A stretch of DNA of 64,000 nt from Nitrospira sp. (GTDB lineage Bacteria; Nitrospirota; Nitrospiria; Nitrospirales; Nitrospiraceae), in NCBI GenBank assembly GCA_035968315.1, contig JAVYIN010000002.1, positions 248,001 through 312,000 of the forward strand, given 5' to 3'. The notes under the pieces are model-generated. The model searched no databases, was not told the DNA's origin, and saw only the letters and a list, made by a program, of their open reading frames with translations. Each line of letters opens with the position of its first letter. Positions within the stretch are counted from its first letter, which is position 1. Of this stretch, positions 23,091-34,489 are shown one piece after another. The position numbers and the translations under genes were made by a program.

Positions 23091-24095
23091 TCAGCTGGCC
23101 GGCTTCACTGCGGCCGGGGCTTCTTCGGCTTTAGGTGCGCGCAACGTACCCAGATAGGTCGTCACGGCCTTCGCATCGGCATCGCTCAACCCCAATGCCG
23201 GCATGCGCGTCTCCGGTTTCATGGCCTGCGGGTTCTTGAGCCACCGGTAAATCCAGGTGCCGTTCAAACGGAATCCCGCACGATCCAAGGCCGGCCCGAC
23301 CTTCCCGCCTTCTTCGGCGATGCTATGGCAGCCATTGCAGCCGTACTTGTTCTGATAGAGGCGCTTGCCCAGCTCAACCTGCTGCGCCATCACTTCCGGC
23401 GTCATGGTCAAATCCGGGCGGGCCACGTTCTGGCCCTTGCCTGGCCGCATGGAGAAGTTATTGAGGCTCGCTTGCGCGGCATCGAGTTCCTTCTTGGCCG
23501 CCGCCATCGCCGCCTGCTCTTTGGCATAGAGGGACTCGTCCACTTCGGCTTCTTTCTTTTCTGCTTCCTCGCTGGCCTTCTTTTCCGCCGCCTCGAAAGT
23601 CTGCTTCGCCTGCTCGAATTTCTCCTGCGCCGTCTTCAAGCCTTCGGCCAATTCCTTCTTGCGCTCTTCGACTTTAAACTCCAGCTTCATGCCATGAAGG
23701 GTTCTGACATAGCCGACGATCGACCAGATCTCATCCTCGGAGAGGGTGTACTTGAAGGTCGGCATGGTCGGCACGGCAAAGTCGTCGTCGCCGATTTTAT
23801 CCCCGCCCGGGCTGGTGTCCTTCATATCGCGGGAAATGGTATTGAAAATATCTTCGTCCTTAAAGGTGCCCATTTCCGACTTATTCGAGAGGTCTTTCGG
23901 CTTGGGGTCTGGCATCGAGGACCAATTAAAGCCCTCGTTCTGCCGTCCGTTTTCACCGTGGCAATGCATACAGTAGTGGGCGTACAACTCCTGCCCCTTC
24001 TTCTGCTGCTCATTGGCACAACCGCCTGCGGTCATCGCCCAGATCCCGATCAGGCCGGCGACCGTCCCGATGACTTGTAGTCTTGCCGCCTTCAT
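23091..24095 (-). CDS. Diheme c-type cytochrome with coiled-coil linker, lipoprotein-like
   Basis: 334 residues from ATG 24095, which overlaps the upstream gene's stop (ATGA); longer in-frame starts are rejected. A signal ends in AGGC26 (weak lipobox). The first haem site is C42-MHC-H46. A charged Lys/Glu/Ala coiled coil (about 145-210) follows, then a second haem site C253-NGC-H257 with a distal Met in PETRMPALGL. It is the last gene of the 11-gene respiratory operon and probably carries electrons between the membrane complex and soluble partners. The long coiled coil between haems is unusual. Confidence 0.9.
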   Translation of the reverse strand: MKAARLQVIGTVAGLIGIWAMTAGGCANEQQKKGQELYAHYCMHCHGENGRQNEGFNWSSMPDPKPKDLSNKSEMGTFKDEDIFNTISRDMKDTSPGGDKIGDDDFAVPTMPTFKYTLSEDEIWSIVGYVRTLHGMKLEFKVEERKKELAEGLKTAQEKFEQAKQTFEAAEKKASEEAEKKEAEVDESLYAKEQAAMAAAKKELDAAQASLNNFSMRPGKGQNVARPDLTMTPEVMAQQVELGKRLYQNKYGCNGCHSIAEEGGKVGPALDRAGFRLNGTWIYRWLKNPQAMKPETRMPALGLSDADAKAVTTYLGTLRAPKAEEAPAAVKPAS

Positions 24096-24925
24096 GCTGT
24101 CTGCCCTTTCTTCAATTTGCGGATCAGGACAAACTGAAACCCTAGGGCCAGCGCCGCTGCGAAGGCCGCATAGTAGTAGGCTGAATAATCCGGCGGAGCT
24201 TCGGCGCGGAAATACCACCAGGAAGAGACCGCCTTCTGAGATCCCTTTTCCACGATTTCGCCCGCGCCGTCTTTCCGGCCATCCCAGACCGCAAAGGAAA
24301 TATTGATAAACCCGCCTGGCGTAATCTGTGTATCTTCCGCAGCATGCTCCGTCGAAAGCGGACGGGAGAACACCACTTTCCACGTTCCATTGGCATAGGC
24401 CGCCTTGGCCTTCACATCCTGATGGCTCTGGATTTTCAAGGTCCCGAACCCCTGGGCGTTCATATCCACGCCCTTGTCATCCTTGTTCTTCCAATACCAG
24501 ATGTTGACCGGCCCCCCTTCGACCTGGGCCATGGGCTGCCCGTGGGCGAAGTGCGCTTTTTTATCTCCCACCATGAACTGCAACGCTGCGGCATCGTCAG
24601 GATCCTGGCTCGGGTCGGCATATTCCAAGAGAATGGCCACCTGTGTGCCATCGTGCAACGCCCGGACGGAAAGATCTTTGACCGTCACTTCTTGAATGCG
24701 GTTCGGCCAATGCACCTGGGGCGACATCGGGAACGTCGCCGGTTTCGCGCTGCTCCACACGGCCGCATTAGGATCATCGACAGGCAATGCGCCCTTGACC
24801 ATCGGCGCGCTGACCGACACGCCCTCCTGCGCCATGCTGAGCGTCGCTCCACCGAGGAGCAATGCGGCCGTCACCGCTACGCCCCCTCGCATGACCCACT
24901 GCCTCATTCGTTTTGCCGGTTTCAT
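24092..24925 (-). CDS. Haem-b binding gamma-subunit-like protein (EB_dh / NxrC-type)
   Basis: 277 residues with a signal peptide (about 12-32) and one C-terminal helix (about 252-270). The centre has the haem-binding beta-sandwich signatures of the ethylbenzene dehydrogenase gamma/DMSO-reductase-linked family: PANRIQEVTVKDLSV-like N-part, VAILLEYADPSQDPD, then ANGTWKVVFSRPL and INISFAVWDGRKDGAGE. In Nitrospira, candidate NxrC subunits belong to this family. No catalytic molybdenum subunit is in the window. Here it sits in a quinol/cytochrome operon, so it may serve as a haem-b electron relay. The assignment as NXR subunit is an inference. Confidence 0.78.
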   Translation of the reverse strand: MKPAKRMRQWVMRGGVAVTAALLLGGATLSMAQEGVSVSAPMVKGALPVDDPNAAVWSSAKPATFPMSPQVHWPNRIQEVTVKDLSVRALHDGTQVAILLEYADPSQDPDDAAALQFMVGDKKAHFAHGQPMAQVEGGPVNIWYWKNKDDKGVDMNAQGFGTLKIQSHQDVKAKAAYANGTWKVVFSRPLSTEHAAEDTQITPGGFINISFAVWDGRKDGAGEIVEKGSQKAVSSWWYFRAEAPPDYSAYYYAAFAAALALGFQFVLIRKLKKGQTA

Positions 24926-24977: not shown

Positions 24978-25697
24978 TTATTCCCACGTCCGCGGCGACT
25001 GATGGGCTCCATCGTACTCGCCGAGAATAATCTTCCAGATCCATTCATCCGGCAATTCAAGCTCCCAGCGGGGCATGGCTGATTTCCAGGGCATGCCTTC
25101 GATGGGGAGTCCCACGCCACCCTTCTTGATGCGCCAAAAGAGATAGCTCTCCTGCAGCATGGCGATGGTGGTGGGGTCAGAGAAATTCGCCGGTGGCGGA
25201 TTGAAGCCCCGTGCCGCCGGCCCTTTGCCATCGAACTTTCCACCGTGGCACGGAGAACAAAACGCGGCATAAAACCCTTTGCCCTGCATGATGTTTTCCG
25301 GCGTCTTGGAGACGGGATTCGAAAGCCCCGTGTACTCACCCGGAGGAGCCGGATGGATCGTCCGGTTTTCAGCGGGGGGCGCGTCGCTCGTGGCGGTGCT
25401 TCCGTAAGCCTGGTAGCCAATGAACAACGGAAATACGATCAATACGGCATAGCGGACCGCTTGCAACCCGCCAATATTTTCACCGGTCATGAAGCGCTGA
25501 ATCGGATTCCAGAAGGCATCCTTGGATTCACTGCTCAGGGTCGCAAAAATCACGATGCCGGTCGTCGTCAACATCAAATAGAGGAAGATGAGACTGGAGG
25601 GCAGCGGCGCCGATCCAGGAATATTCGGCACCACAAACTTGAGGATGACATAGACGATCCCAATCAGGATTGCCGGCTTGAGCAGAGATCCCCCCAT
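24978..25697 (-). CDS. Membrane-anchored monohaem cytochrome c
   Basis: 239 residues. Three membrane helices (about 8-25, 33-52 and 83-99) precede a periplasmic domain with a single haem site C147-SPC-H151 and a likely distal Met in GLPIEGMPWKSAMP. The layout of three helices plus a class I cytochrome resembles the cytochrome-bearing subunits of bacterial quinol-oxidising complexes. It is transcribed 10 bp downstream of another cytochrome gene, so both are likely part of one membrane complex. Confidence 0.88.
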   Translation of the reverse strand: MGGSLLKPAILIGIVYVILKFVVPNIPGSAPLPSSLIFLYLMLTTTGIVIFATLSSESKDAFWNPIQRFMTGENIGGLQAVRYAVLIVFPLFIGYQAYGSTATSDAPPAENRTIHPAPPGEYTGLSNPVSKTPENIMQGKGFYAAFCSPCHGGKFDGKGPAARGFNPPPANFSDPTTIAMLQESYLFWRIKKGGVGLPIEGMPWKSAMPRWELELPDEWIWKIILGEYDGAHQSPRTWE

Positions 25698-25707
25698 ATA
25701 CTCCTCC

Positions 25708-26331
25708 TCAGTGCGCTTGCGCGACAGTCACGGTTTCAGATTGCGCCGACTTCACGGGAGCCGCCGGGGCCGCCCCTGGCATCTCCAACTCCGACGGATT
25801 CACCGAAATGGGCTCGCCGCTCATCTGCTGCAAGAACGCAATCACCGACAAAATCTCGTTCTTTGAGAGGCCGATCGGGTTCTTGTTGATATAGGGCATG
25901 CGCGCCGGATATTCCTTGGGCAGGCCCTCGTGGCGATAGTCCAGATAGATGTAGGCCTGAGGCTGGGTCAAACTCTCGAAAATAAAATCCCGGCTCAGCT
26001 TGGCGCCGATTCCCTTCAAATCCGGACAGCGCGCGGATTCGCTCGGCCCAATTGAATGACATAAGGCGCACTGGCCCTTGCTGAAGAAAATCTTCTGTCC
26101 GATGGAGGCCATATCGGCTGGCGTTTTAATGCTCGCTATGTCGATGCTTTCTTCCGCCGGAGGCAGCGAGGCCATCTGCGGCACCGCCAGCGCGACCAGG
26201 GAGAAGAGCCCGAGGACAATCGCCACAAATCCAATCACCCGCAAAAACTTCGATTGGATGAACAGGAGGATAATGATACCCGTCCCGACGACTGATAGTC
26301 CGATTAACTGTAATTTTACGACTTCACTCAT
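25708..26331 (-). CDS. Membrane-anchored monohaem cytochrome c
   Basis: 207 residues with two N-terminal helices (about 7-25 and 30-48), then a periplasmic domain with C88-ALC-H92 and a possible distal Met in ARMPYINK. The C-terminus is Pro/Ala-rich. It lies between the second CydA-like gene and the three-helix cytochrome gene. Short gaps of 27 and 10 bp support one transcript. Confidence 0.88.
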   Translation of the reverse strand: MSEVVKLQLIGLSVVGTGIIILLFIQSKFLRVIGFVAIVLGLFSLVALAVPQMASLPPAEESIDIASIKTPADMASIGQKIFFSKGQCALCHSIGPSESARCPDLKGIGAKLSRDFIFESLTQPQAYIYLDYRHEGLPKEYPARMPYINKNPIGLSKNEILSVIAFLQQMSGEPISVNPSELEMPGAAPAAPVKSAQSETVTVAQAH

Positions 26332-26358: not shown

Positions 26359-28224
26359 TTAGCTCTGCTTGTCCAATGTCGGTGAACCGCCGGCCATTGC
26401 GGGCAATGCCCCATGGCCCATCTCGTCTTTCCCATGACCATCTTTTCCGGCCTTCGCCTTGTCGCCCATCGTCGCCACCCAGAAAATGAACGCCACGATC
26501 ATGCAGAAGAAGAAGGTGTTGGCTGCCATCAGCGCGGCCGCATAACCCAGCGCGGGAGAGAATGCATACTGGGAGGAATCCCGCATGACGCCGTATACAT
26601 GCCAGTGCACGCGGGATGAGGAGCGGGCATAGCCCATCAGCGTCATCAGCAGAATCACCATCACCGCATTGAGCACCAGGGAGTAACCGGCGCGCGGCGG
26701 CATCTTGCCCCACACCATTTCCGTTGTCGTCTTCGCGCTCTTCAAAATGGCCGAGGTCAACAGGGTAAAGGTCACCAGCACGAAGAGCACGATGCCGACC
26801 TGCGACGTGGAGAAGTAATTGATGCGGATAATGGCCGGCACAAAATACCCGTACACACCCAGGGAGATCACCGCCAAGCCAGCGAGGACAAGAAGCGCGT
26901 TCATCACGGCCTTGGCCACGCGCGCCCATCCCACCGTCGCCTGCTTGCCGGCTTGCCAGTACATCAGAAAGCTCATGAACGTGACGAGCACCATGAGATT
27001 CGACACGGTCATTTTGGCCGACATAACACCGAAGACGCCCAGGAGGGGATGGTGCGTGCCACCCATCTTTTGCGCCTCTTCCAGACTGGCCACAAGCGAA
27101 TGCGGCGTCATCCAGACTCCGAGACACAAGAGCAGGATCACCAGCATCGTCAAAATCGGCTTCTTATATTGGGCTTCAGACCCCGGAATGCGATGGGTAA
27201 TGCCCATCCAGAAATAATAGTTCGACCCGAGAAAGAGGACCCCGATGAGCATGGCTTGCAGGATGAAGAGCCAGGAGAGGAAGCCGCCCATCAACGTGAT
27301 GCCCATCTGCTGGTTATACTGATAAATTTCACGCATCAGCCAATAGCCGGCAAACGGCAACGGCAACAAGCCGAACACGCCGATGAAATTGCCGACATAG
27401 CCCATCCAATCATAGTGCTCACGCTCTTCCGGCCCCTTGGCGGACAAATACCGAATTCCCGCGTAGGCCCCGCAGATATAGCCGCCGAGCACGACGTTCG
27501 CGATCAACCGGTGAATATTGACCGGCCACCACGTTGGATTCCAGGTTGCCGCCCAGGCTCTCGCCAGATCCGACCCTTCCGCGATGACAACCGGACTCGC
27601 CTGGAACGTGGCCCAGGAGTTCGGGATAATCATGATGAAGAAGGCGAATACGTTGAGCATGAACCCCAGGAAAATGTGGAAGACTTTCCCCCGGCCTTCC
27701 GACATCGCATCCCATCCATACCAATACATATAGAGGGTGGCCGTTTCGAGCAGGAACAAGGCGCAATAGACCATGAACGACGGAAAGAAAATATCACTGA
27801 GGTAGGCCATGAGCTTGGGATAGGCCCCGATCAGGATGAACAAAAGAATTCCACCGAACAGCGCGGTCGTGGAATAGGCGGAACTGAGCAGCTTGGTGAA
27901 TTCTTTGGCCAGTTTGTCGTAGCGCTTTTCGCCGCTTCGCCATCCAACCACTTCGCAAAGCCAGGCGAAAATCGGCACACCCAGCACGAAGCCCGCGAGC
28001 AACAGATGCAATTGCGCAATGACCCACACCAAGTTCCGGCTTCCAACGAGAGGCACGTCCCGATAGGCGACAGCCGCGGTCGCGCCAGAATCCGCCGCCA
28101 ATCCGATAGCCGGAGCGATCAACGCCCCCGCTGCCACGACCCAGGCCGCCACTGCGGCGGGCGAATTGGCAAGGAGCCGAATAAGCTGTTCAATCATTCC
28201 ACGCCGTTGCATCATGGATATCAC
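26359..28224 (-). CDS. Cytochrome bd oxidase subunit I-like protein (second copy)
   Basis: 621 residues, about 14 membrane helices, longer than classical CydA. An eyeball alignment to E. coli CydA puts the haem b595 His in VIAQLHLLLAGF, Glu107 in LLETATLYMYWYGWD and His186 in VNIHRLIANVV. Glu99 appears replaced by a hydrophobic residue, and the quinol-binding Q-loop is not recognisable. CydB is absent. Such 'bd-like' proteins are characteristic of Nitrospira; their real activity is unsettled. The start at 28224 is used; other Met codons exist within ten residues. Next to a 357-residue membrane protein and cytochromes c. Confidence 0.85.
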   Translation of the reverse strand: MISMMQRRGMIEQLIRLLANSPAAVAAWVVAAGALIAPAIGLAADSGATAAVAYRDVPLVGSRNLVWVIAQLHLLLAGFVLGVPIFAWLCEVVGWRSGEKRYDKLAKEFTKLLSSAYSTTALFGGILLFILIGAYPKLMAYLSDIFFPSFMVYCALFLLETATLYMYWYGWDAMSEGRGKVFHIFLGFMLNVFAFFIMIIPNSWATFQASPVVIAEGSDLARAWAATWNPTWWPVNIHRLIANVVLGGYICGAYAGIRYLSAKGPEEREHYDWMGYVGNFIGVFGLLPLPFAGYWLMREIYQYNQQMGITLMGGFLSWLFILQAMLIGVLFLGSNYYFWMGITHRIPGSEAQYKKPILTMLVILLLCLGVWMTPHSLVASLEEAQKMGGTHHPLLGVFGVMSAKMTVSNLMVLVTFMSFLMYWQAGKQATVGWARVAKAVMNALLVLAGLAVISLGVYGYFVPAIIRINYFSTSQVGIVLFVLVTFTLLTSAILKSAKTTTEMVWGKMPPRAGYSLVLNAVMVILLMTLMGYARSSSRVHWHVYGVMRDSSQYAFSPALGYAAALMAANTFFFCMIVAFIFWVATMGDKAKAGKDGHGKDEMGHGALPAMAGGSPTLDKQS

Positions 28225-28241
28225 CTCTCCATCGCCCAGTC

Positions 28242-29243
28242 CTAGGGTGTTGCCGGAGCTTTCACTGGTGCCTTGGCGTCAGCAGGCTTAGCCTTGACGG
28301 CTTTCCCTTTATCTTTCTCTTTTTCTTTCGCCGCCTCTTCTTCCGCTTTCATCTTTTCAAGCGACTCGACCTGGGCAGCCAGCACCGTGATGGCTTTTTC
28401 GTCTTTATTCAAGGCCTCGACCGGTTTATACGGCGGCTGGGCTTTGACTTCAGGCTTCTTGCAGCACTCATGGGGATGCGGCGTGCTGACCGGCAGCGCC
28501 GACCAGAACAGCAGAGACAGCACCACCCCGATCAACGTAATCGCGGTCAGCATCAATCCTTGGTCGGCTGGCACCCGCATCAGGTCCCACCGGGTAATAA
28601 TGTCCTGATAGCTCTGACCGGTCGGCTGCGCCGATTGCGACGCGCCCTTGATCACCCGGCCGACCAATGCGACCCCGATGAGCAGCATCACCAGCAGCAC
28701 CCCCAATGACACGCTGCCCCAGAGGGTCAACTCAATGCCGATCTTCTCCGCCACGGGAACGGCTTTCAGCATCTCGGTTTCAAACAGCGCGTGCGATAGC
28801 GCGATCGAATTTTCGGTCACAAAACCAACCACAAACCAGAGGATCGGCATGTAGACCGCGCCAACCAGCGCGGTCTTGATCCAGAGCGAGAGCGCCAATC
28901 CATCCGGCGGCTCAAGCCGTAACTTTTCAAGGAATACCGTTCGAGACACCACCCCTATCGCCCAGATGTCGATGGGAATGCACAGAAGGAACAAGAGCGC
29001 AATTCCGAAACCTTCTCCGAGATGCGGTTCGAATGCCATGCTGAGAATCGGCATCGCGAAAACCGTCACGGGACTGGCGAGATACATGAGGAGGGCCAGG
29101 CCAATGCGCCCCTCGAAGTGCATCATGCCCAGAGCCAGAAAGAGCAGGGCAATGGCCAGCTTGATGGGGAAGCCGGTCCAAAACGCGGACCAGAGCACAT
29201 TCAATCCCAGCTTCAACGGAGTCATCGATTCTCGTTCCGTCAT
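28242..29243 (-). CDS. Polytopic membrane protein of the respiratory operon
   Basis: 333 residues from ATG 29243. About seven hydrophobic segments lie between residues 10 and 240. A charged C-terminal tail (Lys/Glu/Ala) follows a Cys-Cys pair in HPHECCKKPE. No known family is recognised. A CydB-like role is possible because two CydA-like genes lack a CydB, but the sequence shows no CydB motif. It lies between cytochrome b and the second CydA-like gene with gaps of 37 and 17 bp, so it is almost certainly a complex component. Confidence 0.8.
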   Translation of the reverse strand: MTERESMTPLKLGLNVLWSAFWTGFPIKLAIALLFLALGMMHFEGRIGLALLMYLASPVTVFAMPILSMAFEPHLGEGFGIALLFLLCIPIDIWAIGVVSRTVFLEKLRLEPPDGLALSLWIKTALVGAVYMPILWFVVGFVTENSIALSHALFETEMLKAVPVAEKIGIELTLWGSVSLGVLLVMLLIGVALVGRVIKGASQSAQPTGQSYQDIITRWDLMRVPADQGLMLTAITLIGVVLSLLFWSALPVSTPHPHECCKKPEVKAQPPYKPVEALNKDEKAITVLAAQVESLEKMKAEEEAAKEKEKDKGKAVKAKPADAKAPVKAPATP

Positions 29244-29280
29244 AGTGTAACCACCGGCAAAGCGCAGGCGCTTCGCACGA

Positions 29281-30396
29281 TTAATCCAGGAATTCCCGGT
29301 TGATAATGGCTGCAATGGTGAACAGCAGAATCATCGCCATGACCACAATCCAACCGATCAGGGCGATGGGACGCTTGAAAATATTCCGCTCCGGATCGCG
29401 ATCGATAAATGGCAGCGCGGCCAAGAGCGCCATGAATGCGCCGGGCAATGCCATCGCGCCCACGAACTGGCCGAATTCACCGCCGAACATCTTGAGGCGC
29501 AGCAATTGGAATAGGAACAGGAAATACCACTCCGGCTCAGGATGGTAATCACCGGGGTCAGGCGTCGCCTCTTCCAACAGCACGACCGGCTCCCAGAATG
29601 CCAAGGCGCAAATCGTGAGAAATACCGTCACCATCCCGACGATGTCTTTCCAAATCTGGCGCGGGAAGAAGTAGTCGGTCTTCGCTTTGATTTCTTCCGG
29701 CGTGCCACGGAACGGACCAGCAGGTCCTGCGGCGCGGAACAAGAAGATATGGAGTCCGGCAAGTCCCATCAGGCCGGCAGGAAGAATCATGACGTGGATG
29801 ACGAAAAACCGACTTAAGGTCATCTGCCCAGGCGTGGCTCCCCCCTTGAGGAACCGGGCCATAAAATCGCCGATGACCGGCGTCTTATCCATGATTTCGA
29901 CACCGACGGTCGTCGCCCAATAGGCCCGCTGATCCCACGGCAACAAGTAGCCGGTAAATCCAAAACCCATGACCAGGCCGAAGAGCGCCAAACCCACAAG
30001 CCAAATCAACTCACGAGGACTCTTATAGGCGCCCCAGAGGAAGACTTGCGACATATGGGCAAACACGCAGACCACCATGGCCGTCGATCCCCAGAAATGG
30101 TAACTGAGGAGGAACCAGCCGTAATCGACTTCATGAATGATGTACTGGGTGCTGGCAAAGGCGTGATCGGCGGTCGGCACATAGTAGAACATCAGCAGGA
30201 TGCCCGTGACGGCCTGCATGATGAAAATAAAGAGCAGAATTGAACCGAACACATAGGCCCAGCGGGAACCGCCGGGAACCGGCTCATTGAGCATCTTCGC
30301 CTGGATGGTCTTGAGACCAACCCGCTCATCGACAAACGCGATGACTTTTTCGAGTGCGGTAAGCCCGGTCGCTGAAGGCGGTGTCTGTTCCATCAT
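29281..30396 (-). CDS. Cytochrome b (b6-type) of the quinol-oxidising complex
   Basis: 371 residues, about eight helices. Haem ligands are H100 and H114, and H201 and H216, so the second pair has 14 intervening residues, as in cytochrome b6 rather than mitochondrial-type cytochrome b. The Qo-site motif PEWY is at 288-291. Both the four-helix b6 part and the subunit IV part are in one chain. Together with the Rieske gene it forms a menaquinol:cytochrome c reductase. The gene ends two bases before the next element; the Rieske gene is directly upstream (2-bp gap). Confidence 0.93.
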   Translation of the reverse strand: MMEQTPPSATGLTALEKVIAFVDERVGLKTIQAKMLNEPVPGGSRWAYVFGSILLFIFIMQAVTGILLMFYYVPTADHAFASTQYIIHEVDYGWFLLSYHFWGSTAMVVCVFAHMSQVFLWGAYKSPRELIWLVGLALFGLVMGFGFTGYLLPWDQRAYWATTVGVEIMDKTPVIGDFMARFLKGGATPGQMTLSRFFVIHVMILPAGLMGLAGLHIFLFRAAGPAGPFRGTPEEIKAKTDYFFPRQIWKDIVGMVTVFLTICALAFWEPVVLLEEATPDPGDYHPEPEWYFLFLFQLLRLKMFGGEFGQFVGAMALPGAFMALLAALPFIDRDPERNIFKRPIALIGWIVVMAMILLFTIAAIINREFLD

Positions 30397-30398
30397 GC

Positions 30399-31334
30399 TC
30401 AGATGATCCGAATTTGAGTTTTAGTGCCGGCCTTGAATTCCATGTCGATGATCTCCACTTCTCCCGTGGCCGATACTCTGATAGGCAGTGAATCGAGCGA
30501 CCGCGGAGCAGGCCCATCGAGCACTTTCCCGGATGCGTCGTAAATGCTCAGGTGGCAGGGACAGAGGAACACCTGGCCCAGGACTTTATGCTGACGCCAT
30601 TTATAGCCGCAGCCCAAGTGCGGACACTTGCCAGAAAATGCCACGAAGGGCACATCTTTCTTATTCGTCCAGACCGCCTTGCCGTAGGCGTCCTTAAACT
30701 CCAGGTCCTTGCCCTGGTACACCTTCTCCAACACCGCCGGCGTGGCCTTGAGAATCCACACATTCTTTTCGATTTCAGATTCCGGCATGTAGGCTTCCTT
30801 GACCTTGCGCTTATACTTGAACTGGAAGCCGATATCGTCCTGCTTGATCTTGCTGATATTGCCGACCTTCAGCCATCCATTATCGAATGGGGAATACATC
30901 GGCTTCATCAGATAGCGCAATACCGGGAACGCGATCGGCAACCCGATCAGGAACCCGATCACGTGCGTGAAATTCATGAAGAAAGTGCGGCGCTTGACGC
31001 TCTTTTCAAGCTCCGGGAACGGAACGAGCACTTCTCCGGGCGTGACATGCACCTTCTCTTCGAGATGGGCAATTTCCACTTCATGCGTGGTCACGTACTC
31101 ATCGCGCTTGAATGGCGGCAGCTCAAGGATATCCCCCGATGCGGCACGCAGCTCGACAAGACCCTCGGCGACCGACTGCACGAAAGTCATGGCCACCTGC
31201 CGCTCACCGCTGCCGTTCATCGAGACCACGATATGGCTGATCTCGTGCGAGAGCGGATCGACGATGACTCGCGTCACTTCTCCGATTTCACGGTCCGTTG
31301 CACGGACCTTGGATTTAAGTTTCGGCTGCATCAT
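30399..31334 (-). CDS. Rieske iron-sulfur protein fused to an N-terminal PRC-barrel domain
   Basis: 311 residues from ATG 31334, overlapping the upstream stop (TAATG). Residues 4-80 look like a PRC-barrel (SKVRATDREIGEVTRVIVDP and IVVSMNG). A single membrane helix (about 117-143) follows, then the Rieske fold: ligands C237, H239 in CPHLGC and C258, H261 in CPCHLS, with C242/C260 forming the usual disulfide. Classical Rieske subunits have only a short N-terminal segment before the helix, so this domain is an addition placed in the cytoplasm. It accepts electrons from quinol at the cytochrome b Qo site and passes them to cytochrome c. Confidence 0.92.
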   Translation of the reverse strand: MMQPKLKSKVRATDREIGEVTRVIVDPLSHEISHIVVSMNGSGERQVAMTFVQSVAEGLVELRAASGDILELPPFKRDEYVTTHEVEIAHLEEKVHVTPGEVLVPFPELEKSVKRRTFFMNFTHVIGFLIGLPIAFPVLRYLMKPMYSPFDNGWLKVGNISKIKQDDIGFQFKYKRKVKEAYMPESEIEKNVWILKATPAVLEKVYQGKDLEFKDAYGKAVWTNKKDVPFVAFSGKCPHLGCGYKWRQHKVLGQVFLCPCHLSIYDASGKVLDGPAPRSLDSLPIRVSATGEVEIIDMEFKAGTKTQIRII

Positions 31335-32140
31335 TACTTCATCTTGATGGGTTTCGGAGTGTTCACAGACGTGTTCTTGAATGTCGAGAGCCACGCCGCC
31401 AGCGCCTGCACATCCTTCGGCTCCATGAGATCCTTGTACTTGTCGGGCATCTTGCCCTTCTCGTACTCGGCATCGAAGCCTTCAGCCTTGTAGGCCTTGG
31501 GATCGAGAATCTTTCTGGCAATTTCATCCTGGGGAAGCAGCGTCCCGATATTATCCAGCTCGGGGCCGCGCTTCTTTCCGCCCTCACCCTTCAGCTTGTG
31601 GCAGTTATAGCACTCCTGGAGCTGCCACTGCTCCTCGCCCAGCTTTAACACATCGCCACCGGCCGCGCCGGTCGTGGCCACAGCTGCACCTGCTCCGCCG
31701 GCTTCCTGGCCCGCCGGTGCTTGAGCCGCGCCCAAAGCCTTGATGCGCTCGGTCAACTCTTTCGCCTTCTGATCGAGATCCTTCGCACGGGCAATTACTT
31801 CTTCAGCCTTCCAGGGATCCAAGAGATTCGGTTTCCCCTTCAGAAGCTTGACGATCTTCCCCTTTTCGTCCTCCGGATCATATTGCGGCCAGAGCGAGGC
31901 GCCGGAAATGAACACGGTGCAGAGCACGGCGTAAAACGCCAGCAAGGACACCAGCGCCTTGCCTCCGCTCATGACCTTCATCGTCGGGGCATCCAAGATC
32001 AAGAACACGATGGTGCCCAGCATGGCATACCCAAAGAAAAGCCATCGGAAGACAGGCGGAAAGTCGAACGCCATCGTGGCCATATAGAGGCCGGCGCCGA
32101 TCACGAGTCCGACGATAATCTTGATGATTGCCTTGCCCAT
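31334..32140 (-). CDS. Membrane-anchored monohaem cytochrome c
   Basis: 268 residues. Three hydrophobic segments (about 5-22, 31-49 and 61-80) are followed by a charged coiled coil (about 108-140), an Ala/Gly linker and the haem site C177-YNC-H181. A possible axial Met lies in KGKMPDKY. It precedes the Rieske gene with a one-base overlap (TAATG), showing tight coupling. It probably takes electrons from the Rieske protein. Confidence 0.9.
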   Translation of the reverse strand: MGKAIIKIIVGLVIGAGLYMATMAFDFPPVFRWLFFGYAMLGTIVFLILDAPTMKVMSGGKALVSLLAFYAVLCTVFISGASLWPQYDPEDEKGKIVKLLKGKPNLLDPWKAEEVIARAKDLDQKAKELTERIKALGAAQAPAGQEAGGAGAAVATTGAAGGDVLKLGEEQWQLQECYNCHKLKGEGGKKRGPELDNIGTLLPQDEIARKILDPKAYKAEGFDAEYEKGKMPDKYKDLMEPKDVQALAAWLSTFKNTSVNTPKPIKMK

Positions 32141-32190
32141 AATGCTCCTCGTTCTAGATCCCTATGAATGCACCAGGAATAATCGACTCG

Positions 32191-33894
32191 TTACTTGGCC
32201 CCTGCCGGAACTGCCTCGCCCTCATGCGCCTGCTCCTTTGGATGCGAAGCGCGCAGCGTGACAATGATCGCAAAACTGACGACCGCGTAGAACACCACCG
32301 TGATGCCGGTGATATACCAAGCCGAATAGGCCAGGGTCGGCGTGAACGATTCGGCCGTAAAGTCAGGCAGCAGGTTGTACGTATGGAAATACTTCCGCAG
32401 GAGCGAGCGAACGGCGCCCATCAGACCCATGGTCCAAATCGCGCTGAAGGCCAGGAAGATCAAGACAAACTGGGAGGCATAGTCGATCTTACCCCAGACA
32501 ATCGTGCCCTGCGTGACAGCCCGGTTGTAGATGATGTAGTTGACGACGGTGACGAACACCAGCGTAAAGGCCGCAGAGTTCTTCGCCGGCATCAAAGCCA
32601 GGAAGTTCCAATCGGACGGAAGCTCCAGTTCAGCAACCAGCTTGGCCCCGGTCGGCACGAACCCGTGCGGGGTCATCCAGATCGCATTTCCCACGACAAC
32701 CATCAAGAAGCCGATCTTAATGACGGTTCTCGACGAGACCGTGATGGGGATGAAGCGTCCGAGGACCGCCGGCGCCAGCAACATCGGCAACAGGAACATC
32801 AGCGATTTGGGATCAGGCGCCGGATAATCGGTCAGAACCTTGGTCATGACCAGCGGCAGAGCCACCATCACGATGGGCGCGAGGATCGTCATGCGAACCT
32901 TCTCCACCCCTTCGATCCGCTTCATGCTGAGCCAGATATAGTAGTTACTGGCCAGGAAGATCAGCCCGATCATCGCCCCCTGCATCTCAAAGAACATCGA
33001 GAGCTGGTCGGCCATCATGTACGGGCAAATGGACGCGTCGTAGTCGCAGAGCTCGTAGGCCAGCAAGTAGCCCATGAACGGGAGGAAGAGCAACGCGCCG
33101 ACTCCGATCATGTTTCCAACAAAGCCCATCCAGTCGTAATACGAGCGCTCTTCGTCCTTGGTCGAGCCCATATACATATAGGCGGCGATCAACCCGGCCA
33201 CGAATCCACCGAACGTTACATTCCCCACCAGGCGATGGAGATTCAGCGGCATCCAGCTGTAATTGAACATCTTGTCCCAGATCGTCGCCGTCGCCAAGAA
33301 TTCCGCCGGCGATACACCCTCGGCCTTGACCGGGGTATTCATGAACGACGTCGGACCGTCAATGACGAACAAGGTAATCGACCCGATCAGGTTCAACAGC
33401 ACACCCAGGGCAATATGGCGCGCCTTCTTGTTCCCCTTCCACGCATCCCAGGTATAAAAATACAAGTAGAGGACAATGGTCTCGCCGATGAACAGCAGTG
33501 GATAGATGACGGCGAAGACCATGAAGAAGTGGTTGATCAACCAGGTCGTGAACTGCGGATAGGTCGCCAGCAAGACAAATATGAAGAGACCGCCGGTCAA
33601 GGCCGTCATACTGTAGAGGATGACAGTAACCTTGGTGACTTCCTTTGCCAGCCGGTCATAGCGGGGATCCTGCTTGCGGTAGCCCAGCCACTCCGAGATC
33701 ACGACGAAGATCGGAGCGCCGAGAATGAATCCCGCAAACAGGATATGGAGCTGAGCGACGATCCAGACCGCTGTCCGATTCCCGGTGTACGGGAATTCCA
33801 CCGAGGGCGTACCCGGTGCCTGTGCATAGGCCGCCCCGCCGAACAGCGCCAGAAGCGCAAAGAGAACCATGAGACTGCGCTGCCATGTTTTCAT
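32191..33894 (-). CDS. Cytochrome bd oxidase subunit I-like protein (first copy)
   Basis: 567 residues with a cleavable-looking leader (ending AYAQA) and about 14 helices. It is a paralogue of the gene at 26359. Conserved positions by eye alignment to CydA: His in VAQLHILFAGF, Glu107-equivalent in IGETIVLYLYFYTWD and His186-equivalent in LNLHRLVGNV. The Glu99 position is Ile, and no Q-loop GRD-type motif is seen. Without CydB, its partner is unknown. It may be a terminal oxidase or a quinone-interacting electron-transfer module. Upstream and downstream genes are cytochromes c. Confidence 0.86.
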   Translation of the reverse strand: MKTWQRSLMVLFALLALFGGAAYAQAPGTPSVEFPYTGNRTAVWIVAQLHILFAGFILGAPIFVVISEWLGYRKQDPRYDRLAKEVTKVTVILYSMTALTGGLFIFVLLATYPQFTTWLINHFFMVFAVIYPLLFIGETIVLYLYFYTWDAWKGNKKARHIALGVLLNLIGSITLFVIDGPTSFMNTPVKAEGVSPAEFLATATIWDKMFNYSWMPLNLHRLVGNVTFGGFVAGLIAAYMYMGSTKDEERSYYDWMGFVGNMIGVGALLFLPFMGYLLAYELCDYDASICPYMMADQLSMFFEMQGAMIGLIFLASNYYIWLSMKRIEGVEKVRMTILAPIVMVALPLVMTKVLTDYPAPDPKSLMFLLPMLLAPAVLGRFIPITVSSRTVIKIGFLMVVVGNAIWMTPHGFVPTGAKLVAELELPSDWNFLALMPAKNSAAFTLVFVTVVNYIIYNRAVTQGTIVWGKIDYASQFVLIFLAFSAIWTMGLMGAVRSLLRKYFHTYNLLPDFTAESFTPTLAYSAWYITGITVVFYAVVSFAIIVTLRASHPKEQAHEGEAVPAGAK

Positions 33895-33931: not shown

Positions 33932-34489
33932 TTACTTTCCAGCTTCCGGGGCTGCAGGAGCCGCCGCCGCATCTGCCGCCGGGGCTGCCGCCGCAGGCGC
34001 CGCCGCCACACTGGCCGCATCGACCCACGACTTCTTGCCCTCATCCCAGCCCTTGCCGGCCAAGCCGAAGCTGCGCTCAAACAACACGAGCTTCCAACGG
34101 TCTTCGTCGGACAACTTGCTCTTCCAGGCCTTCATCTTGGTGTTGGGCACGCCCTCGGAAATACGCCAGAACCAGACAGAGTCCGAATACAATTTCATAC
34201 GGTCAGTGACACGGAAATCACGGGCACCTGCCTTGACAGGCTTGCCGTCCTTGCCGTGGCAGCTGGCGCAGTTGACGTCCGGATTGGTCTCGCCGATAAA
34301 CAGCTTCCGGCCTTCCTCAAGCTTCGCCGCATCCGTCCACCAGCCGGCAGGCATATGCTTGTCCGCATATTCCGCGGGCGCAGGAGGAGGAGGAACGACC
34401 GGTCCTTCGCCACCGCCCTCACCGCCGCCGCAACCGGCAATCGCCAATCCCATTCCCAACGCCAACATCAAATGCCATGAAGCTTTCAT
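33932..34489 (-). CDS. Monohaem cytochrome c lipoprotein, first gene of the respiratory operon
   Basis: 185 residues. Lipobox IAGC20, then a Gly/Glu and Pro linker, haem site C74-ASC-H78, and an Ala/Pro-rich tail. A strong GGAAGGAAAGGAG ribosome site precedes the ATG. It opens the 11-gene unit; the promoter must lie in 34490-34703, where no clear -35/-10 pair is visible. As a lipid-anchored cytochrome it could link the Rieske/cytochrome b complex to soluble carriers. Confidence 0.9.
   Translation of the reverse strand: MKASWHLMLALGMGLAIAGCGGGEGGGEGPVVPPPPAPAEYADKHMPAGWWTDAAKLEEGRKLFIGETNPDVNCASCHGKDGKPVKAGARDFRVTDRMKLYSDSVWFWRISEGVPNTKMKAWKSKLSDEDRWKLVLFERSFGLAGKGWDEGKKSWVDAASVAAAPAAAAPAADAAAAPAAPEAGK

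Follow-up and report, generated by a model that had tools for sequence, protein, structure and literature searches.

OR-N-type CydA paralogues without CydB in a conserved cytochrome c gene cluster of Nitrospira

Few nitrite oxidisers are as widespread as Nitrospira bacteria, whose oxygen-consuming enzyme has still only been proposed in the literature cited here. In Nitrospira moscoviensis, a gene cluster comprising bd-like_1 and bd-like_2 has been described, which is highly transcribed in nitrite-grown cells; bd-like_2 has been regarded as a putative terminal oxidase and a complex III-IV supercomplex has been suggested, which may touch the nitrite oxidoreductase via an alternative NxrC (Mundinger et al., PMC6606698). 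The bd-like oxidases reported with the Nitrospina genome keep the haem ligands and lack quinol-binding residues, the Q-loop being replaced by three helices (PMC3578206). Nide0901-like proteins have been assigned to OR-N2, and OR-N1 together with OR-N2 has been proposed to constitute a CydAA' oxidase of unknown biochemistry that probably uses cytochrome c (PMC12342949; PMC10839748; both citing Murali et al. 2021). A cytochrome c-oxidising oxidase with a different partner is already a published hypothesis for OR-N (PMC12342949; PMC10839748; PMC6606698). Analysed here is a 64-kb stretch (the window) on contig C2 of a Nitrospira genome of 3.11 Mb and 99.97% completeness, in which two minus-strand genes between positions 26359 and 33894 encode the CydA-like paralogues P0002 (OR1) and P0001 (OR2). 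The finding is real and biologically important, and the system is one already described.

In gene content and order the locus equals the bd-like_1/bd-like_2, CIII_1 and alt_nxrC_1 cluster of N. moscoviensis (PMC6606698; locus L013), with P0001 81% and P0002 94% identical and placed in the same tree clades. The nearest named relatives of the window are Nitrospira; P0001, for instance, is 93% identical to its counterpart in Nitrospira sp. SJ32. N. moscoviensis additionally has two canonical CydAB (PMC6606698; canonical CydA at L164 and L165), whereas the genome analysed here has none. Like the putative cytochrome c-oxidising CydAA' of OR-N1/OR-N2, the locus combines a pair of CydA paralogues, one of them Nide0901-like, with the lack of CydB and Q-loop; no difference was seen in this comparison, which is by labels taken from the literature (PMC12342949) and not tested against a reference set. 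With canonical CydAB (E. coli bd-I and bd-II) the pair shares the CydA fold over its whole length and the residues His19, Glu107, His126 and His186; unlike canonical CydAB, it has no Q-loop, Glu99, Glu445 or CydB, and has instead extra helices and adjoining cytochromes c. The interpretation favoured here, with a probability of roughly 0.7, is that OR1 and OR2 are OR-N CydA paralogues within one respiratory assembly leading from cytochrome c to O2, in which they likely act as a paralogous pair. The two genes and the codons discussed below are:

32191-33894, minus strand: P0002, CydA-like paralogue OR1, 567 aa, orthologue of bd-like_1 and probably OR-N1 (Pfam Cyt_bd_oxida_I, 1.5e-22)
33502-33504, minus strand: OR1 Tyr131 codon at the Glu99 position (Tyr in 75/75 OR1)
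26359-28224, minus strand: P0001, CydA-like paralogue OR2, 621 aa, orthologue of bd-like_2 and Nide0901-like, OR-N2 (Pfam Cyt_bd_oxida_I, 5e-18)
27766-27768, minus strand: OR2 Tyr153 codon at the Glu99 position (Tyr in 87/87 OR2)
27049-27054, minus strand: OR2 His391-His392 codons (GGxHHPLLG) in a loop inferred to be periplasmic (HH in 87/87 OR2, not in OR1)

That the two genes encode CydA-like paralogues, as a first-pass annotation of this DNA had proposed, holds at the level of family and fold. The Pfam family Cyt_bd_oxida_I matches both proteins over the N-terminal 240 of its 418 profile positions, far above the cut-off, and is the sole Pfam family of either; the same search gave no membership in the haem-copper oxidase family COX1. 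AlphaFold2 models of P0001 and P0002 (mean pLDDT 82 and 83) find CydA chains of bd oxidases as their top structural matches, with bd-II CydA matched over the whole length at Z 33.5 (354 residues, 3.7 Å) for P0002 and at Z 25.7 (344 residues, 3.8 Å) for P0001. Between CydA helices 6 and 7, where the Q-loop would lie, both models have extra helices instead. Next after CydA, the structural search with P0002 and P0001 ranked ActF/ActC of alternative complex III (Z 23.9 and 17.6) and PsrC; these matches, a hint that CydA and NrfD folds may be built alike, were not accepted as family membership.

The active site was assessed in 75 OR1-type and 87 OR2-type homologues set against 33 canonical CydA sequences (E. 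coli CydA, locus L087, and 32 further CydA from Nitrospirota), throughout which His19, Glu99, Glu107, His126, His186, K252, E257, Met393, Trp441 and Glu445 are invariant. According to published assignments, haem b558 is bound by His186 and Met393 and haem b595 by Glu445, with haem d on His19 and Glu99 opposite (PMC8585947; PMC8324918; PMC6853902). His19 (H50 in OR1, H73 in OR2), His126 (H160/H183) and His186 (H220/H238, an assignment based on several alignments and a profile comparison) are kept in 100% of both groups, and Glu107 (E138/E160) in 69/75 OR1 and 86/87 OR2, so that the retention of His19, Glu107 and His186 read by eye in the first-pass annotation can be extended to His126. The Glu99 position, by contrast, is Glu in every canonical CydA and Tyr in every OR1 and OR2; the annotation was right in finding no Glu there, and its description of the position as hydrophobic falls short of an invariant Tyr. 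An alternative register shifted by one residue, considered because the Glu99 helix of E. coli has a one-residue insertion compared to Geobacillus (PMC6853902), places mostly Ile, Leu or Val at this position, and Glu occurs in neither register. In OR1 of one six-member Nitrospira clade (L028, L030, L035, L036, L047, L052), Gly occupies the Glu107 position.

K252 and E257 of the Q-loop are absent from all OR-N sequences aligned, in agreement with the earlier remark that no quinol Q-loop is visible, and with the loop lost the known quinol site is therefore missing; in fact, none of the known quinol-binding residues of CydA remains in OR1 or OR2. The GRQPW motif beside Glu445, present in 33/33 canonical sequences (GW..ExGRQPW), occurs in 0/177 OR-N proteins, 171 of which read LMGxxRSxxR in this region; as acidic residues are missing from this motif and from the positions just before it in 170 of these 171, Glu445 is missing as well, a loss the first-pass annotation had not listed. 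A proper alignment in which Glu99, the Q-loop and all three haem ligands are together intact, the outcome named there as speaking against its view, has thus not emerged. Set beside the published ligand assignments, the aligned sequences have kept the O2-site His and lost both carboxylates near the haem iron. The invariant M401/M435 is no more than a candidate for Met393, lying in a C-terminal half that cannot be reliably aligned residue by residue, and Trp441 is kept in OR1 and absent from OR2. H375, H391-H392 and H542 are invariant in the 87 OR2. Given the N-out topology of canonical CydA and the helix order, H375, H391-H392, H540 and H542 are inferred to lie on the periplasmic side; the loop 376-399 with the adjacent His pair has a pLDDT below 50 and its position is not resolved in the model.

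The inventory of oxidases points in the same direction. Not only the window, as noted in the first-pass annotation, but the whole genome is without a match to the CydB family PF02322, which control genomes do match; a CydB encoded nearby or hidden elsewhere in the genome was accordingly rejected. Canonical CydA is equally absent from the genome, whose CydA-like proteins number four, including two others (bd-like_3/4) on contig C3. Its two COX1-like hits are short, and both were rejected as true haem-copper oxidase, one being a 432-aa protein without an adjacent His pair and the other a 125-aa fragment. Apparently, then, the genome encodes no oxygen-reducing enzyme beyond the OR-N type. The order Nitrospirales is aerobic and nitrite-oxidising, and neither canonical CydA nor any match to COX1 was found in its near-complete members G077 (a single contig, 100% complete), G060, G094 and G102; in these relatives without canonical bd or haem-copper oxidase, the terminal oxidase should by elimination be an OR-N protein, although elimination does not single out one of the four. 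Since the genome analysed here and such relatives offer natural situations where no oxidase other than an OR-N protein should exist, the oxidase question becomes directly testable.

In the phylogenetic tree OR1, OR2 and bd-like_3/4 form three clades, each distinct from the phylum's canonical CydA; P0001 groups with bd-like_2 of N. defluvii and N. moscoviensis and P0002 with bd-like_1 of N. moscoviensis. Taking together homology, modelled fold, the missing Q-loop and the common clades with Nitrospira OR-N proteins, P0001 and P0002 are OR-N-type CydA and, without CydB, Q-loop, Glu99 and Glu445 in the sequences, are not canonical quinol-oxidising bd oxidases (qOR). Relatives of both occur in every Nitrospirales genome listed, with full-length orthologues in nearly all. 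The cluster is conserved throughout the order: of the Nitrospira loci with sufficient length to show it, most keep gene order and strand. Beyond the order, most or all of it is present in three genomes from other families of the class (L144-L146). The cluster consists of 11 minus-strand genes from 34489 down to 23091; its five cytochrome c genes, four monohaem and one dihaem, carry six CxxCH in all. In order of transcription, OR1 stands between the first and second and OR2 between the fifth and sixth of the remaining genes:

33932-34489, minus strand: cytc1, monohaem cytochrome c without a strong membrane helix (Pfam Cytochrome_CBB3, 1.5e-8; one CxxCH), which adjoins the OR1 gene in distant relatives too
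31334-32140, minus strand: cytcTM, membrane-anchored monohaem cytochrome c (Pfam Cytochrom_C, 3.8e-10; three helices, one CxxCH)
30399-31394, minus strand: Rieske iron-sulphur protein (Pfam Rieske, 3.4e-9; TIGR01416, 1.7e-15, under the curated cut-off)
29281-30396, minus strand: cytochrome b of a bc-type complex (Pfam Cytochrome_B, 1.7e-48)
28242-29243, minus strand: unknown membrane protein, not CydB (no Pfam/NCBIfam match)
25708-26331, minus strand: cytc2, membrane-anchored monohaem cytochrome c (Pfam Cytochrom_C, 3e-7; one CxxCH)
24978-25697, minus strand: cytc3, membrane-anchored monohaem cytochrome c (Pfam Cytochrome_CBB3, 1.1e-7; one CxxCH)
24092-24925, minus strand: alternative NxrC, the haem b subunit of EB_dh/DMSO-reductase type II, with a C-terminal membrane helix (Pfam EB_dh, 2.3e-24; TIGR03477, 1.9e-31, under the curated cut-off)
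23091-24383, minus strand: dihaem cytochrome c (two Cytochrom_C stretches, 5.6e-19; two CxxCH), the true start of which probably lies inside this open frame

Most likely the products of OR1 and OR2, the four monohaem and one dihaem cytochromes c, the Rieske protein with cytochrome b and the alternative NxrC belong to a single respiratory assembly. Nitrite oxidation would deliver electrons via the alternative NxrC and the cytochromes c to the haems of OR1 and OR2, and the CydA-like pair would reduce O2 at the haem site formed with His19. The Rieske/cytochrome b module (bc complex) would link the cytochromes c to the quinone pool, probably operating in the reverse direction in nitrite-grown cells. 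OR1 and OR2 would replace CydA-CydB as a paralogous pair, and the paralogue itself is a better partner candidate than the 28242-29243 protein, to which the first-pass annotation had looked for a partner. The latter was rejected as a CydB-like partner: it has no family match, and its gene is reduced in the class-level relatives to one for a 126-aa single-helix protein with a charged tail (L145), gives a short match (L144) or finds none (L146).

This assignment is supported by the CydA fold with His19, Glu107, His126 and His186 kept, the loss of the Q-loop, the presence of cytochromes c, Rieske protein and cytochrome b in a conserved cluster, the lack of CydB, the oxidase absences in G077, G060, G094 and G102, and the published proposal with its transcription data (PMC6606698). 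Several observations weigh on the other side. No OR-N enzyme of such a kind has been characterised in the OR-N and Nitrospira literature cited; the proteins have lost both Glu99 and Glu445, which are important to haem d and haem b595 of the canonical enzyme; Glu107 is lost from OR1 in the six-member clade; the phylum member G203 (L148), which also encodes haem-copper oxidases elsewhere in its genome, has OR1 as its only CydA-family protein, so that pairing is not obligatory everywhere; and related clusters of the bd-like_3/4 type occur in anaerobic anammox bacteria (PMC6606698), wherefore a CydA-like fold alone is no proof of O2 reduction. The last point, with the proposal that the conserved anammox type serves reverse electron transport (PMC6606698; PMC3578206), the absence of Glu99 and Glu445 and the structural likeness to ActF/ActC, could also be accommodated if the CydA-like proteins were haem-b electron conduits, for instance between cytochrome c and quinone or docking the nitrite oxidoreductase, and another protein the oxidase. 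This is unlikely, as the known quinol-binding residues are all missing, OR2 retains His19 and Glu107 of the O2 site and four members of an aerobic order would be left without a known O2 reductase. Of the two functions between which the first-pass annotation had left the choice, an oxidase with another partner and a cytochrome c donor is consequently favoured, and a non-oxidase is improbable given the relatives lacking canonical CydA and haem-copper oxidase; that the system had already been described was not recognised in that annotation.

Somewhat less doubtful is that OR2 alone is catalytic, as a haem-copper-like O2 reductase using its invariant HH as in the 2010 proposal of a copper site for Nide0901 (reported in PMC6606698; PMC8115632), with OR1 a structural or electron-transfer subunit. 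The invariance of HH391-392, H375 and H542 in OR2, the lack of HH in OR1 and the tolerance of OR1 for Gly at Glu107 would fit; however, the HH lies in the low-confidence, presumably periplasmic inter-helix loop and by sequence not beside the His19 site, Trp441 is kept by OR1 and lacking in OR2, and an OR1 module exists without OR2 in G203. A reading as ordinary quinol bd oxidases whose CydB has diverged, on the other hand, would explain the full CydA fold and is already contradicted by the absence of PF02322, Q-loop, Glu99 and Glu445 and by a place in the tree apart from the phylum's canonical CydA, which makes it highly improbable. Within the preferred assignment of OR1 and OR2 to a cytochrome c-oxidising assembly, a more far-reaching version is tentatively put forward, namely a mechanistically separate O2 reductase with b haems only, Tyr for Glu99, loss of Glu445, cytochrome c as electron donor and additional helices that perhaps translocate protons, in a supercomplex from nitrite to oxygen; the invariant Tyr at the O2 site might perhaps act as proton or radical donor. 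If the assignment is true, it would add the oxidation of cytochrome c to that of quinol in the bd superfamily, with the active site altered.

Some further observations concern relatives and neighbouring genes. OR1 and its two cytochrome c genes occur as a small module with no OR2 nearby in L147, L148 and L149. In the same-genus genome G165 (contig C79, L122) OR2 is only 59% identical and groups with the class-level OR2s, while the OR1 encoded within a few kb of it reaches 89% identity, which looks from the sequences like a single-gene replacement inside the cluster; this OR2 is also alone among the 87 in lacking Glu at the Glu107 position. A CydA-like relative in L150 (8438-10123, minus strand; G111, contig C8), the sole member of the CydA family identified in its genome, has Met for His19 and Phe for the conserved Tyr. 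The Rieske protein of the cluster is extended at its N-terminus by a stretch that matches PRC-barrel weakly, at E 0.0024 and below the cut-off. The 432-aa COX1-like membrane protein (L005, 1081-2379, plus strand; G000, contig C2 near 52500) contains HxH motifs, and COX1 hits of the same frame size occur in G108 and G115. A loss of nitrite oxidoreductase from the genome was rejected as an effect of assembly: the first 60 residues of NxrA sit at two contig ends (G000, C8:2-178 and C7:544425-544601; L162, L163), and the operons have therefore been broken by the assembly.

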